In this document: positions 20,788 to 26,293 of the stretch, piece after piece
How positions within the stretch are numbered: the stretch's first letter is position 1
Layout: the number at the start of each line of letters is the position of its first letter
NCBI GenBank assembly: GCA_012729535.1
Contig: JAAYCY010000060.1
Location: 1-64,000, forward strand
Direction: 5' to 3'
From: Methanomicrobiales archaeon
GTDB lineage: Archaea; Halobacteriota; Methanomicrobia; Methanomicrobiales; Methanospirillaceae
DNA length: 64,000 bases
Position numbers and translations under genes: made by a program
Notes under the pieces: generated by a model
Databases searched by the model: none
Seen by the model: only the letters and a program-made list of their open reading frames with translations
Told to the model about the DNA's origin: nothing

Positions 20788-21960
20788 TTATTCGTGCCTG
20801 AGGGCTTCAATTGGCCGTAGGTCTGATGCTTTCCAAGCCGGATACAATCCTGAAAGGATACTGGTTGCAATGCCAAAGAGCATACCATAGGGAATCTGGA
20901 TAAAACTGGAGAATTCAAAAAGGTAGGATGTTTCCTGGAGTATCAGGGCTAATGCAACATATCCTCCTATAAAACTCAGTATCCCACCGATAATGGACCC
21001 GGAGACTCCGAGGATCAGGGATTCGTAGATGAACATGCTCCTGACCTCAGCCCGTTTTGTCCCAATTGAGCGGAGAATACCAATTTCCCGGTACCGCTCC
21101 ATCACCGACATCATCATGACATTAAAGATTGACACCCCTGCAACAACCAGGGAAATTCCACCGATGGCCATGGTAAATGTGGAAATCTTCCCGAATGTAT
21201 CAAGAATTGTCTCAAGGATTGCCTTGGTGTCATAGATGTCAACTTCGTCTTCACGCCGGTTTATCTGGGCATCAATGGAGTCCTTGACTTTTTCGATGTC
21301 ATTGAGGTTTTTCACCTTGACAATAACCTGGTCGTACCCTGACACATTGTAAAAGTTCTCGTACCACTGCTGTGATGCAAGGATTGCATTATCTGGACTT
21401 AGATCAAATCCCATACCCCGTTCTTTCAGAATACCCACTACCCGGACTCCGTTTTCTTCTTTTCCGATAAGAATTCGTGATCCAACGGTCAGGTCATTAT
21501 CTTTGGCAAGTTTTGATCCAATCATGACTCCGGAAGCGCCGCGTAGGAACTGGCCTGTTTCAACGTCGAGAAGGGTTGGGATATCCTGTGGTTCAATGCC
21601 ATAAATTGACGCAATTTTAATTTCCCTTCCTATCCTGATCCGGTCTCCACCAGTATATACGGGCACCACTTCATTGTTTCCTGATGCCCGTCTGATTTGT
21701 TCCAGTTGCCGGTCGGTAATTCCGCTGGCTGTTCCCTCTGCTCCAAATCCGCCGAATGATGTGTGTGGAATGACCACAACTGAATCTCCCACATCGGTCA
21801 GTGATTCTGCAACGGACAGAACCAGACTGTTTCCGAGAATACCCATCGATGAGATGGCCACGACCCCGATGATGATTCCAATCGCTGCAAGAAGTGATCT
21901 GAGCCAGTGGATATGCAGGTTTCTAATAGCAAGGCTGAAAAAGAGACGATGACTGGTCAT
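20788..21960 (-). CDS. ABC transporter permease, MacB/FtsX type
   Basis: Permease of 390 aa with the MacB layout: one membrane segment at about residues 18-40, a large extracytoplasmic MacB_PCD domain at about 40-250, then three membrane segments in an FtsX domain to the C-terminus. The cytoplasmic YREIGILRSIGTKRAEVR coupling motif is present. The start used gives the usual N-terminal LAIRNLHIHWLRSLLAAIGI and overlaps the ATPase stop by 4 bp (21957-21960). The longer frame to 22071 lies inside the ATPase gene. It is the last gene of the six-gene leftward cluster. Such systems extrude or handle envelope substrates by mechanotransmission; the substrate here is unknown. Confidence 0.9.
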   Translation of the reverse strand: MTSHRLFFSLAIRNLHIHWLRSLLAAIGIIIGVVAISSMGILGNSLVLSVAESLTDVGDSVVVIPHTSFGGFGAEGTASGITDRQLEQIRRASGNNEVVPVYTGGDRIRIGREIKIASIYGIEPQDIPTLLDVETGQFLRGASGVMIGSKLAKDNDLTVGSRILIGKEENGVRVVGILKERGMGFDLSPDNAILASQQWYENFYNVSGYDQVIVKVKNLNDIEKVKDSIDAQINRREDEVDIYDTKAILETILDTFGKISTFTMAIGGISLVVAGVSIFNVMMMSVMERYREIGILRSIGTKRAEVRSMFIYESLILGVSGSIIGGILSFIGGYVALALILQETSYLFEFSSFIQIPYGMLFGIATSILSGLYPAWKASDLRPIEALRHE

Positions 21961-22649
21961 ATGCCATTCTCCGTTATTTTTCCGTCCTCGATGAGGATAG
22001 TCCGGTCTGCATATTCTGCAATTCTTGGGTCGTGGGTGACCATGACGATGGTTTTGCCCTGTTCCCTGCACAGGCGGGTAAGCAGGTCCATTATGGCCAT
22101 ACCAGTTTTGGTATCAAGGTTTCCGGTGGGTTCATCACAGAGGAGAATTTCAGGATCATTAACAAGAGCCCTTGCTATTGCTACCCGCTGTTGCTGACCA
22201 CCTGAGAGCTGACCAGGTCTGTGGTGCCAGAGATGGGGAGTAAGGCCGACTGCAGCAAGGACTTCTTTGCACCGTTCTGTGCACCCGGTTTCTCCTGTTT
22301 TAAGGATAAGCGGATATTGCACGTTTTCCAGGGCATCAAGGAGAAGGATGAGGTTAAACTGCTGAAAGATAAAACCCAGGACGTCACGCCGCAGTTCAGT
22401 GAGCTGGTCATCATTCATGCTCCTGATATTCTGCCCGGCGATGTAGACATCCCCGGAAGTAGGGATATCCAGGCATCCCATCATGTTCAGGAGCGTTGAC
22501 TTTCCTGAACCGGAAGGCCCCATGATGGCAATGAATTCTCCCCGGGAGACTTCAACATCAACGTGATTTAACGCAGTAACGTCGCCTGACGCAAGGGGAT
22601 AAATCTTGGTGACATCATGAAATGCTATCACCATCCCGGTATCTTTCAT
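21957..22649 (-). CDS. ABC transporter ATP-binding protein, LolD/MacB type
   Basis: A 230-aa ATPase partner of the permease. Walker A is MGPSGSGKSTLLN, the Q-loop is in IFQQFNL, the signature motif is LSGGQQQRVAIARAL, Walker B is ILLCDEPTGNLD and the switch His is in MVTHDPR. This is the standard sequence of the MacB/LolD subfamily. It overlaps both the upstream COG1361-like gene (22646-22649) and the permease (21957-21960) by 4 bp, so the three proteins are made in a coupled fashion. Confidence 0.96.
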   Translation of the reverse strand: MKDTGMVIAFHDVTKIYPLASGDVTALNHVDVEVSRGEFIAIMGPSGSGKSTLLNMMGCLDIPTSGDVYIAGQNIRSMNDDQLTELRRDVLGFIFQQFNLILLLDALENVQYPLILKTGETGCTERCKEVLAAVGLTPHLWHHRPGQLSGGQQQRVAIARALVNDPEILLCDEPTGNLDTKTGMAIMDLLTRLCREQGKTIVMVTHDPRIAEYADRTILIEDGKITENGI

Positions 22650-23809
22650 GCCCGTTGTTTCCGACTGTACCAGACTGCGACCATAACTCCCGCAGCGATT
22701 ATTACGAGAACTCCAATGATAACCGGGGATAGTCCCTCATCATCCTGCTGTTTTTTAGGGTCTTTGCCTTTCCCGAGTTCTACCTGGGTTATGCTGCTGA
22801 ATTCATTTCCATCATCATCCTTAAATGAGGCTTTTAAGGGAACTTTTGTAACATTCACATCAGCATCGAATGTTACTTCAAAACTGGCAAAGTCATCCGG
22901 TTTTAGTGCTCCAACAGCATAGACCTTGTAAGGAAACACCGGAATGGCCGGATCTTCTGATGTAATAACTACTGCATTTGCATTTTCAAGTCCGGCATTG
23001 GTAACATCTCCGGTTACCCGGTAAAATTCACGTTCTACATCGACCTGTACATTAGATAGAACAGTGTCTGCCTGTTTTCTGCTCTTCATTCCAGTTATAA
23101 CCGGAAGAGTATAGGAGACCTCATGCTGGTTTATACCATTTTGGTACTGGATGGTGAAGATCACTGGTTCATCTCCATATGGGGTAATAGAGAAAGGAAT
23201 GTCCAGAGAATTATCCGATTGTATGATTCCGGCGAAATAGGATGTCGGAGTTATTTCATGTTCTCCCTTCGATGGGGTGATGATGACTCCGTTGACAGCA
23301 TTATCACGTGGATTTCCGATATGGATAACAATGTTTTCTTTCTTTCCCTCGACCCATGTTTCTGGTTTATTAAGAACAGAAACCTCAAGTGGATTTTCCT
23401 GTACTGTTACTTTGAACGGGTATCTGAGGTAATTGGCATCCCTGAAATCAACCGATAAAACCGGGTAAAATATTCCGGCAACTCCTCCTGCCTGGAGGGT
23501 GTATGTAAAACTCATCGAATTTCCAGCACCAATGGCACCAACCTTGCCATAATCATCAGACAGCACTTTTACATCCTTGGATTGTATTTCGGCACCTGAT
23601 ATTGCAACACTCTTAGTCCCGGTATTTGAAAGAGTGATGGTGACCGTTGCGGTGTCATAAGGCATGAGAATTAACGGATCGATGGTGAGATCAGTTACCT
23701 GTATCTGTGCCGCAGCTGCTTCATTCTCCGCCTGCATTTCTGCTCCTGCCAGTGGGAGAAGCAGGAACAGGGAAAATAGACAGTAAAAAAGAATTTTACC
23801 GGTGTTCAT
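22646..23809 (-). CDS. Secreted, membrane-anchored COG1361-like envelope protein
   Basis: A 387-aa exported protein: signal peptide at residues 1-23, then three to four Ig-like beta-sandwich repeats of the archaeal COG1361/CARDB kind (TVTITLSNTGTKSVAISGAE, then ENIVIHIGNPRDNAVNG and VTGDVTNAGLENANAVV). A single membrane segment near residues 362-382 is followed by a basic tail. The Ig domains face outside. It lies between the Yip1-like and ABC genes with 4-bp overlaps on both sides and is probably an accessory or adaptor subunit of the ABC system. Confidence 0.85.
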   Translation of the reverse strand: MNTGKILFYCLFSLFLLLPLAGAEMQAENEAAAAQIQVTDLTIDPLILMPYDTATVTITLSNTGTKSVAISGAEIQSKDVKVLSDDYGKVGAIGAGNSMSFTYTLQAGGVAGIFYPVLSVDFRDANYLRYPFKVTVQENPLEVSVLNKPETWVEGKKENIVIHIGNPRDNAVNGVIITPSKGEHEITPTSYFAGIIQSDNSLDIPFSITPYGDEPVIFTIQYQNGINQHEVSYTLPVITGMKSRKQADTVLSNVQVDVEREFYRVTGDVTNAGLENANAVVITSEDPAIPVFPYKVYAVGALKPDDFASFEVTFDADVNVTKVPLKASFKDDDGNEFSSITQVELGKGKDPKKQQDDEGLSPVIIGVLVIIAAGVMVAVWYSRKQRA

Positions 23810-24480
23810 GCAGCTCCCCCGGTAAACAGGAGGAGTGATGAAAGGGTGTATGCAATGTATATGACAACCGGAAGCCCTCCCACGATGAGTGCTTTTTTGG
23901 CAGAGAGACCACAGCAGCTTTCAACCCCTATCGACCAGAGGTTTGCTACCCAGATAAGGAAGATGATAGAGATAATGGTTGAAATTATCGTGTATTGGTG
24001 CAAGGCAGGATCTTCCAATAGTGACATTGCAGCCATGCTTATCTCCTGTGGGTCAGTTGTCCTGATTGGGGTGATTTCGGCCTGGGGAATGTAGTATGCA
24101 CCGATAATTACGGATATAATGGTTGCTATTACCAGGGGGATCATCCCATATCCGGATATCTCCATAACTCGTTTGAATGTACCTGTTCCCTGCAATACTT
24201 TCTGCAATGCAAACAGGATGATGGCTGCAATTAGCCACATAATACATGATCCAATAAAGGTCGAACCAGCTGCACTTATTGCAGTAATCGTCTCAATGCC
24301 TTCCATGAGGCCGGATAACATTTTTCCGGAGAGTTCTCCCATCATGTATCCGCTGATAGAGCCGATTACTGCCATTGCCAGGACTATAAGGGCTGGTTTT
24401 TTTAACGAAGGTTCATTTTGACTGATAGTGGTAAAAAAATTTCTTGGATTTGTGAGTAATTCATTAAACATAATGTTCAC
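23806..24480 (-). CDS. Yip1-domain membrane protein
   Basis: A 224-aa integral membrane protein with about five membrane segments and the N-terminal FNELLTNPRNFFTTI lead typical of archaeal and bacterial Yip1-domain proteins. Glycine-rich GYMMGELSGKM and GYGMIPLVIA segments match the family. Its role is unknown; in archaea it often accompanies MacB-type ABC genes and Ig-domain secreted proteins, exactly as here. It overlaps the next gene by 4 bp and starts 23 bp after the regulator's stop. Confidence 0.82.
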   Translation of the reverse strand: MNIMFNELLTNPRNFFTTISQNEPSLKKPALIVLAMAVIGSISGYMMGELSGKMLSGLMEGIETITAISAAGSTFIGSCIMWLIAAIILFALQKVLQGTGTFKRVMEISGYGMIPLVIATIISVIIGAYYIPQAEITPIRTTDPQEISMAAMSLLEDPALHQYTIISTIISIIFLIWVANLWSIGVESCCGLSAKKALIVGGLPVVIYIAYTLSSLLLFTGGAA

Positions 24481-24735: not shown

Positions 24736-25290
24736 CTAGTAAACGTCCCCTTTTTGGTTGAAATAATACTGAAACAGAATTGTACTGACCGGCATCATGA
24801 TTATGAAAACCAATAGCACCGTATTAGCAGAAATCTGCATACCTCCAAAACTGATGGCAACGGAGAGAAAGATAACCAGAACATAAGTCAGGTACCAGGA
24901 ACAGGAAATGCCATATGTCCCGATACGCAGTGATCGTTCATCCTGTATTCCTGCGTCACTACCCTGACGTTTCATTCTCCAGTGTAAGAGGATGAGAATC
25001 ATACTCATGGTAAATCCCATTCCCGGGGTTGCCGGGAGAAGAGGGACATCCAGTAGTATTGTTCCAAAGGATATGCTCAGCACTATTACTGCTATTATCG
25101 CAATAACACGCCTGACTTCTGGCGTGTTATGTTTTTTCAGCAGATAGAGCGCTCCGAATCCAACTGCAACAAGGAGTGTCCAGAGCAGTGCATCATAATA
25201 GAAACCTGATGCATAGAATGTTCCGATGATAAACATCAGGACAAGGCATGAAATGATAATTTCCAGGGTGATAAGTGCAGACTTGTTCAT
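24736..25290 (-). CDS. DUF2178-like multi-spanning membrane protein
   Basis: A 184-aa membrane protein with five to six hydrophobic segments and a short cytoplasmic loop [13 protein letters not shown] near residue 120, the hallmark I associate with DUF2178 proteins. These are typically next to a short XRE regulator, as here. The function is unknown; a role in sensing membrane state or stress is often assumed. It is the first gene of the leftward cluster, immediately downstream of the operator-like sites. Confidence 0.8.
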
Positions 25291-25299
25291 CAGATCACT

Positions 25300-25317
25300 G
25301 TGTGTTATTTCTCACAC
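25300..25317. promoter_or_regulatory. Inverted repeat in the leader of the DUF2178-XRE operon
   Basis: GTGTG-TTATTTCT-CACAC, 5-bp arms around 8 bp, 10 bp before the ATG at 25290. It lies where initiation is expected and might be an additional operator or a leader hairpin. It differs in sequence from the two sites next to it. Confidence 0.4.
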
Positions 25318-25320
25318 TAA

Positions 25321-25356
25321 GTTAGATATATGTAACCTATGTTAGATAAACCTAAC
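25321..25356. promoter_or_regulatory. Tandem 16-bp operator-like palindromes
   Basis: GTTAGATATATGTAAC (25321-25336) and GTTAGATAAACCTAAC (25341-25356) share GTTAGATA and a GTTA-N8-TAAC dyad. Their centres are exactly 20 bp apart, two helical turns, so two dimers would bind on one face. They overlap the likely TATA box (minus strand ACATATATC) of the leftward operon. The XRE regulator encoded in that operon is the natural candidate to bind. Confidence 0.65.
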
Positions 25357-25360
25357 TCGC

Positions 25361-26293
25361 CTAGAGCACTTTCCACCGAACGAGAATAAAGAGCCCCAAA
25401 GCACTGGCAGCGAGGGCACCAAACATGATAAATAAAAAGGCAAATGGATTTTCCTGCAGGGGAAGAACTACATTCATCCCATAAATGCTGGCAATAAGTG
25501 TTGGTAAGGCGATAAGAATAGTGATGCTGGTCAGGAGTTTCATTACGACGTTTACATTATTATTAATAATTGAGGCAAATGCATCGCTCATTCCAACGAT
25601 AATTGACTGATAGATGTTTGCCATCTCAAGAGCCTGTTTGTTTTCAATAACCATCTCTTCATAGAGGTCAAGTTCATCATCTGTCATTTCAAGGATATTT
25701 GAATACGAAATTTTCTCAACCATGAGAGAATTTGAACGAAGTGAAGTGATAAAGAAAACAAGGCTTTTGTGCAGGCTTAACAGGTCAAGAAGTTGGTCAT
25801 TTGTTGTCGACCGGTACAGGTTCATCTCAATAAGGTTACTCATCCGGTTAATGTCTTTTAAATACCTGAGAAACCTGAGAGCAGTCCGGTAACAGATCTG
25901 AAGGGCAAAACGTGTCCTGATTTTTGTATCAGAATTCCTAACCCATCCGGATATGAACTCATCAAGAACATCCACTTCAGTCAGGGTCACCGTAATGATG
26001 ACATTCCCGGTCAGGATAATACCAATAGGGAGAGTAATATATGGGATGACAGCTTCTTCAGGTTCACGACGCGGCGACCTGATAAGAATGAGGATATTAC
26101 CTTTATCAACCTCAAATCTGGCCCGTTCATCAACATCGAGAGGATCAGTAAAAAATTCAATGAAGACACCAAATCGCTCAACAAGAAGGGCTATTTCCTT
26201 TTCGGTAGGATTTACTACCTTGATCCAGCACCCGTCTACCCATTCTTCTACAGGGACAAGACCCTCATGTGAAGTAATATATGCTGCGATCAT
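25361..26293 (-). CDS. corA: CorA-type magnesium/metal ion transporter
   Basis: A 310-aa CorA-family channel, a pentamer in the membrane. The large N-terminal cytoplasmic domain (about residues 1-240) ends in a long helix. The two C-terminal membrane segments follow, with the family motif YGMNV (GMN signature) at the end of the first near residue 272 and a basic C-terminal end, RWKVL. Length is typical. It probably carries Mg2+ or Co2+/Ni2+; the substrate cannot be settled from sequence. It is transcribed towards the DUF2178 cluster but the operator-like sites lie between them. Confidence 0.92.
   Translation of the reverse strand: MIAAYITSHEGLVPVEEWVDGCWIKVVNPTEKEIALLVERFGVFIEFFTDPLDVDERARFEVDKGNILILIRSPRREPEEAVIPYITLPIGIILTGNVIITVTLTEVDVLDEFISGWVRNSDTKIRTRFALQICYRTALRFLRYLKDINRMSNLIEMNLYRSTTNDQLLDLLSLHKSLVFFITSLRSNSLMVEKISYSNILEMTDDELDLYEEMVIENKQALEMANIYQSIIVGMSDAFASIINNNVNVVMKLLTSITILIALPTLIASIYGMNVVLPLQENPFAFLFIMFGALAASALGLFILVRWKVL

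Follow-up and report, generated by a model that had tools for sequence, protein, structure and literature searches.

Upstream of a block of membrane-protein, regulator and exporter genes, the window (the whole 64,000-nucleotide stretch of archaeal DNA analysed here) carries tandem 16-bp GTTA-N8-TAAC dyads, which in all probability are the operator of the co-encoded XRE-type protein of 73 residues. The pairing of site and regulator, the helical phasing of the sites and, for part of the genomes, their presence before a second target cassette can be read directly from the sequence comparisons described below, and from these we expect that the XRE protein would bind the dyads directly and that its sites would overlap the TATA box.

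The dyads and the operon that they precede

The original prediction placed two dyads 20 bp apart, centre to centre, in front of an operon that encodes its own regulator, and both features were confirmed (Table 1), the XRE gene beginning 10 bp behind the membrane-protein gene on the same strand. The number of sites held only in part, since both dyads are real but a third, degenerate one lies 21 bp (centre to centre) from the nearest of them and is clear in the Methanospirillum-type relatives. Together the dyads fill the 70-bp gap bounded by the corA stop at 25361 and the first position of the membrane-protein gene at 25290, and the core of the middle dyad is the likeliest candidate for the TATA box. 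Taken alone, the third dyad of the window has a score of 5.9 and ranks 17 among 63,985 window positions. In the six aligned Methanospirillum-type promoters the three dyads are found at spacings of 20 and 21 bp, and the third reads GTGAGAAATATCTCAC in three of the six and GTGCGGTTTATCGCAC in one aligned relative, a paired change by which the symmetry is kept; the operator in these promoters consists of three sites, the third one degenerate. A reading of the dyads as a terminator was rejected, the terminator scan having returned none at 25300-25356, and a scan for sigma-type promoters is uninformative here, the host being an archaeon.

Table 1. Putative operator dyads and neighboring genes in the window
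Feature	Position	Strand	Remarks
Operator dyad 1 (distal)	25341-25356	minus	GTTAGATAAACCTAAC; on the minus strand GTTAGGTTTATCTAAC; aligned with five relatives
Operator dyad 2 (middle)	25321-25336	minus	GTTAGATATATGTAAC; on the minus strand GTTACATATATCTAAC; ATATATCTAAC invariant in 6/6 aligned promoters
Operator dyad 3 (proximal, degenerate)	25300-25315	minus	GTGAGAAATAACACAC on the minus strand
corA	25361-26293	minus	upstream of the dyads, co-directional with the operon
Membrane protein, 184 aa	24736-25290	minus	six predicted long helices; QDERSxxIG motif
XRE regulator, 73 aa	24504-24725	minus	Pfam HTH_3 9.5e-15; closest solved structure CylR2 (1utx, 2e-11)
Yip1-domain membrane protein	23806-24480	minus	Yip1 9.2e-30; first cassette gene behind XRE
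Exported CARDB-like protein	22646-23809	minus	weak match, CARDB 0.0062, below cut-off
MacB-type ABC ATPase	21957-22649	minus	ABC_tran 6.3e-33
MacB/FtsX-type permease	20788-21993 (start approximate)	minus	MacB_PCD 2e-25, FtsX 6.2e-20

Within the window GTTA-N8-TAAC occurs at two places, both at 25321-25356, where 0.46 would be expected by chance; two or more occurrences anywhere in the window were reached in 7 of 100 shuffles, and since this is only mildly unusual the case rests on conservation. The 3.09-Mb genome holds 17 occurrences, and a tandem pair is formed only once within the searched range, by the window pair. Further regulon sites had been looked for by means of the more specific form GTTAGATA-N4-TAAC, which is present at the window pair and nowhere else in the whole genome. 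A near-consensus search of the same genome, with up to three mismatches allowed, returned 13 places against 8 for the backward control; a count of two mismatches or fewer was reached by the pair of the window and the winged-helix C13 locus alone.

The operon runs beyond the DUF2178-XRE pair originally described, into a Yip1-CARDB-MacB cassette, and the strand and spacing of the six genes from the membrane protein to the permease suggest that they form one transcript. The HTH_3 domain of the XRE protein scores 54.8 bits against a curated Pfam cut-off of 23, the protein is 90% identical to the XRE of the relative G010, and one stretch of 11 residues is invariant in an alignment of 12 class-1 XRE sequences. 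The label DUF2178 had to be withdrawn from the membrane protein of the window, which shows no match to this family (PF09946) at E values up to 10 and none to any other Pfam family above cut-off. DUF2178 is weakly found in 2 of 17 aligned members (best 0.0044), and some distant partners in the position of the membrane gene match DUF2178 or DUF3796, two of them (L306, L334) matching DUF2178 above cut-off. As DER is invariant throughout the 17-row alignment, the protein may belong to a family not yet described, with kinship to DUF2178/DUF3796/DUF6442. As its structure model has a mean pLDDT of 73 and a pTM of 0.55 and a Foldseek search of the model against the PDB returned nothing with an E value below 1.2, no fold is claimed for this protein.

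In some genomes (L019, L030) the membrane-protein operon runs on into a different ABC ATPase, that of L019 starting with MNIITVENLQKAFKGRPVLKG, which indicates that the type of exporter behind the operator varies. An ABC ATPase as a constant neighbor was also considered and rejected, since a motif test, crude and sure to miss some, found one on the same strand in only 5 of the 80 named loci.

Conservation, spacing and helical phase

A search with the membrane protein gave matches in 70 of 121 related genomes, from each of which one locus was taken, and the upstream stretch tested began 250 bp ahead of the first open frame and included the initial 120 bp of that frame. Across these 70 homologous operons 89 exact dyads were counted in 25.9 kb of upstream DNA versus 3 in the remaining 283.7 kb of locus DNA, and two of those three form a tandem pair that belongs to the same operon but lies farther upstream. 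As the original prediction had anticipated, homologous operons are preceded by sites, in exact form in 54 of the 70 loci, 33 of which carry at least two; for 13 of the remaining 16 a weight matrix built from the exact sites recovered degenerate pairs that are significant. The tested stretch lacks an operator in three loci only, namely L069, in which none was found, L057, with a single dyad 316 bp away, and L016, with a pair about 445 bp upstream. A dyad upstream of the regulator's own operon is kept among orthologues, as in regulators of the autoregulatory type, and the putative operator is a strong phylogenetic footprint.

The sites also keep to a spacing. Among 75 distinct tandem pairs the centers are 21 bp apart in 42, 32 bp in 11, 41-43 bp in four and 54-55 bp in another four, the remaining 14 having spacings of 16-24, 30-33 and 36 bp. 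At a period of 10.5 bp these 75 pairs give a mean resultant R of 0.77 and a mean phase of 0.13 bp, but the sequences are related, so that phase and count statistics overstate independence and the p-values are inflated. The spacings fall on whole turns, as originally proposed and as expected for side-by-side binding, and would place the dimers along a single helix face, in the layout of cooperative binding. Nevertheless, given the variable spacing (16-55 bp) and the loci with a single exact dyad, cooperativity may not be needed everywhere.

Reach beyond the order

In a sample of 392 genomes of the phylum the tandem pattern was found in 78, and the same class of XRE is encoded at those loci outside the order that were opened and have 21-bp pairs. 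A search for named XRE proteins, from which the best 80 of at least 578 relatives were kept, requires RETIVFLE or GKYNPSL, and the protein motif is in consequence shared partly by construction, which does not apply to the DNA. Within 1,200 bp upstream (some of these loci end earlier) an exact dyad was found in 58 of the best 80 of at least 578, two or more in 36, and in a further eight a dyad lies beyond that distance; the dyad sites at these best-80 loci add up to 97, whereas two scrambled patterns yielded 1 and 3. A membrane open reading frame with at least two predicted transmembrane segments stands directly before the XRE gene in 78 of the same 80, in archaea and bacteria. Six of the best 80 are labelled as bacteria (Thalassobacillus pellis, a Bacillota, an Acidobacteria, a Magasanikbacteria and two Dehalococcoidales bins), and all six have a dyad and four a tandem pair. 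Five of these loci come from metagenome bins and may be misbinned; T. pellis is a named strain, and its locus lies within a 1.2-Mb contig. Fifteen distant genomes were chosen from this set, and a tandem cluster was found in 11 of them, each time at the XRE gene and nowhere else, the control giving none. The set of 70 loci, the phylum sample and the best-80 set overlap in several genomes. The pairing of the putative operator with the XRE gene reaches Asgard, Bathyarchaeia, DPANN, Thermococcus and Bacteria.

Proposed mechanism and related systems

The closest solved relative of the window protein belongs to the CylR1/CylR2 system of Enterococcus faecalis (1utx and related structures), in which CylR2 is a small XRE repressor of 66 residues; the match covers 60 residues (3-62 of 72) with an E value of 2e-11. 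CylR2 is encoded with the membrane protein CylR1, proposed to pass the signal, and is described as binding its promoter in the inactive state, with CylR1 needed for induction by a route reported as unknown (PMC3709268). An adjoining, co-encoded membrane protein is likewise present in the window and in the 78 of the best 80 of at least 578 relatives mentioned above. In contrast, the target of CylR2 is a divergent lantibiotic operon, while the module of the window heads its own operon with exporter genes, in an archaeon, and the three predicted helices of CylR1 compare with six predicted here. A further related protein, BcrR, is of the XRE type and binds two inverted repeats. BcrR of E. faecalis comprises a DNA-binding part and a four-helix membrane part and controls an exporter (PMC3968067, PMC13384398), but it is one fused chain that activates, whereas the system of the window is made of two separate genes. 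In LytTR regulatory systems a DNA-binding protein is described as restrained by a separate membrane protein (PMC13384398), which resembles the window in the separation of the two proteins, although the DNA-binding domain here is HTH_3/XRE and not LytTR.

Based on these likenesses, we hypothesize that an XRE dimer would recognize each 16-bp dyad via its R-R-E-T-I recognition helix, and that two or three neighboring dimers, all on the same DNA face, would cover the TATA box and the start region. The bound protein would shut off the synthesis of the membrane protein, of XRE itself and of the Yip1, CARDB-like, MacB-type ATPase and permease proteins, in what would be negative autoregulation. The membrane protein would most likely sense an envelope-active compound or the condition of the membrane, and in response would release or modify XRE, as proposed for CylR1 acting on CylR2, and this release would induce the membrane protein, XRE and the exporter cassette. 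In this scheme repression rather than activation by XRE is probable, the role of the membrane protein as a signal relay is somewhat favored, and the chances that the signal comes from the envelope are about even.

The main alternative is that XRE acts as an activator or dual regulator, which stays bound and stimulates the operon upon a signal from its membrane partner, in the manner of BcrR, reported to be membrane-anchored while stimulating transcription (PMC13384398). Such a role could suit the dyads located far upstream of the XRE gene in some loci. However, a TATA-like core is present in the middle dyad of the window, and the dyads of most loci adjoin the first gene at its start, which favors blocking; moreover, CylR2 is described as a repressor (PMC3709268), and we regard activation as unlikely.

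Probable specificity for the class-1 XRE

When the 121 genomes were searched by DNA alone, tandem dyads were found in 41, against one for the backward-read control, and 39 of the 49 tandem places left after merging overlapping matches have a class-1 XRE gene no more than 3 kb away. A tandem pair is present in 40 of the 92 genomes with a class-1 XRE versus 1 of the 29 without (Fisher p 2.7e-5), and the one exception is of a winged-helix kind. Ten tandem places away from XRE were inspected, of which four stand before Yip1-CARDB genes (G101, G111, G059, G043) and six, which differ in their dyad interior and adjoin a winged-helix regulator, in five of the six with a divergent gene opposite it, are a different system.

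A regulator of this winged-helix kind with similar GTTA-type tandem dyads, or a class-2 XRE paralogue, might be proposed as the protein that binds the dyads, the more so because a PadR/HxlR-like regulator in the genome of the window is accompanied by a GTTA-type pair with 41-bp spacing and because most of the off-XRE places are of that kind. This is very improbable, as the winged-helix dyads have another interior and accompany another gene pair, the consensus-type tandem operator was not found among the 29 genomes without class-1 XRE, and in distant genomes tandem dyads occur at class-1 XRE genes only. Class-2 paralogues are 42-52% identical and have a helix of the form R-Q-T-I in 18 of 20 sampled, and no exact dyad was found in the 8 kb upstream of these 20 genes. 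One relative (L263) has a T-R-Q helix and dyads 24 bp apart.

The winged-helix loci constitute a second tandem-dyad system, in which GTTA-type dyads are 18 or 41-42 bp apart beside the PadR/HxlR-like regulator. It was observed at L075 1460-1517 (in the genome of the window, G000:C13:7667-7723) and also at L088, L094, L100, L112, L117 and L121, mostly with a divergent protein of about 180 residues that has an I[FY]GSF motif and no Pfam name; in the genome of the window the regulator is followed by a DUF3467 protein. At L271 and L272 dyads lie beside the same kind of divergent gene.

Another reading takes the membrane protein and XRE as a toxin-antitoxin pair and the dyads as the operator of the antitoxin. 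The two-gene autoregulated layout would agree with it, and HipB-like and other antitoxin models of NCBIfam match the XRE weakly, all below cut-off. On the other hand, the partner is a multi-helix membrane protein in nearly all of the best-80 loci, class-1 XRE genes are mostly single-copy per genome, and the same operator is also found before a transport cassette in some genomes, which leaves this reading with little credibility. Finally, the notion that the dyads are chance occurrences or an AT-rich promoter without specific binding, compatible with the shuffles of the window, is refuted by conservation in the footprint and in the backward-pattern and scrambled-pattern controls, and its probability is negligible.

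The Yip1-CARDB cassette as a putative second target

The Yip1 gene is widely kept apart from XRE, with homologues in 106 of the 121 genomes searched. A total of 104 Yip1 loci were examined, 16 weaker matches being left out, and exact dyads were found within 400 bp upstream in eight; these upstream stretches (41.1 kb) hold 12 sites versus 5 in 223.7 kb elsewhere, and all five are operators of membrane protein-XRE operons. Pairs were scored in 103 of the loci (the upstream stretch of one was too short), and 11 reached the pair-p floor of 60 shuffles where about 1.7 were expected, L164 and L185 looking weak among them. Some Yip1 homologues have a tandem operator of their own, and cis linkage of XRE and Yip1, with a gap below 300 bp, is found in G000, G003, G009, G010 and G103, with a gap of about 0.9 kb in G001. 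With exact dyads at only 8 of 104 loci the cassette was rejected as a general target of the regulon, and it may have been captured by the regulator in some genomes only, in cis or in trans.

Precedents and significance

Autoregulatory XRE proteins with palindromes and membrane-linked XRE proteins are known kinds. A survey of bacterial XRE motifs reports autoregulatory proteins with upstream palindromes and gel-shift binding in 9 of 10 tested pairs (PMC12565409), but it covers bacteria only, whereas the module of the window is archaeal; its main text contains none of GTTA, TAAC and 'archaea', and its supplementary motif table may hold an equivalent. In the openly licensed literature searched DUF2178 is absent, the matches to DUF3796/DUF2178/DUF6442 look unrelated, and the operator is recognizable in no paper; within that literature the archaeal module, the operator word and the depth of its conservation are without precedent.

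To our knowledge, operators are known for few archaeal regulators. In the present case a single small protein would be enough to test one 16-bp word and one class of regulator, together with a list of sites in archaeal lineages and some bacteria. A role open to testing is thereby proposed for the membrane partner, which has no Pfam name in the genome of the window, and a regulator for the exporter cassette. Taken together, an RRET-type XRE, a small multi-helix membrane partner and a phased GTTA-N8-TAAC operator may form a transferable, cross-domain switch, a generalization for and against which we consider the odds to be balanced, in which the same DNA word and 21-bp layout would serve on archaeal (TBP/TFB) and bacterial (sigma) promoters. 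The switch would report the state of the membrane and would recruit cassettes for envelope or export functions, Yip1-CARDB-MacB for example, in cis or through a copy of the operator before them. If one operator served both transcription machineries, this would be a natural comparison of an unusual kind.
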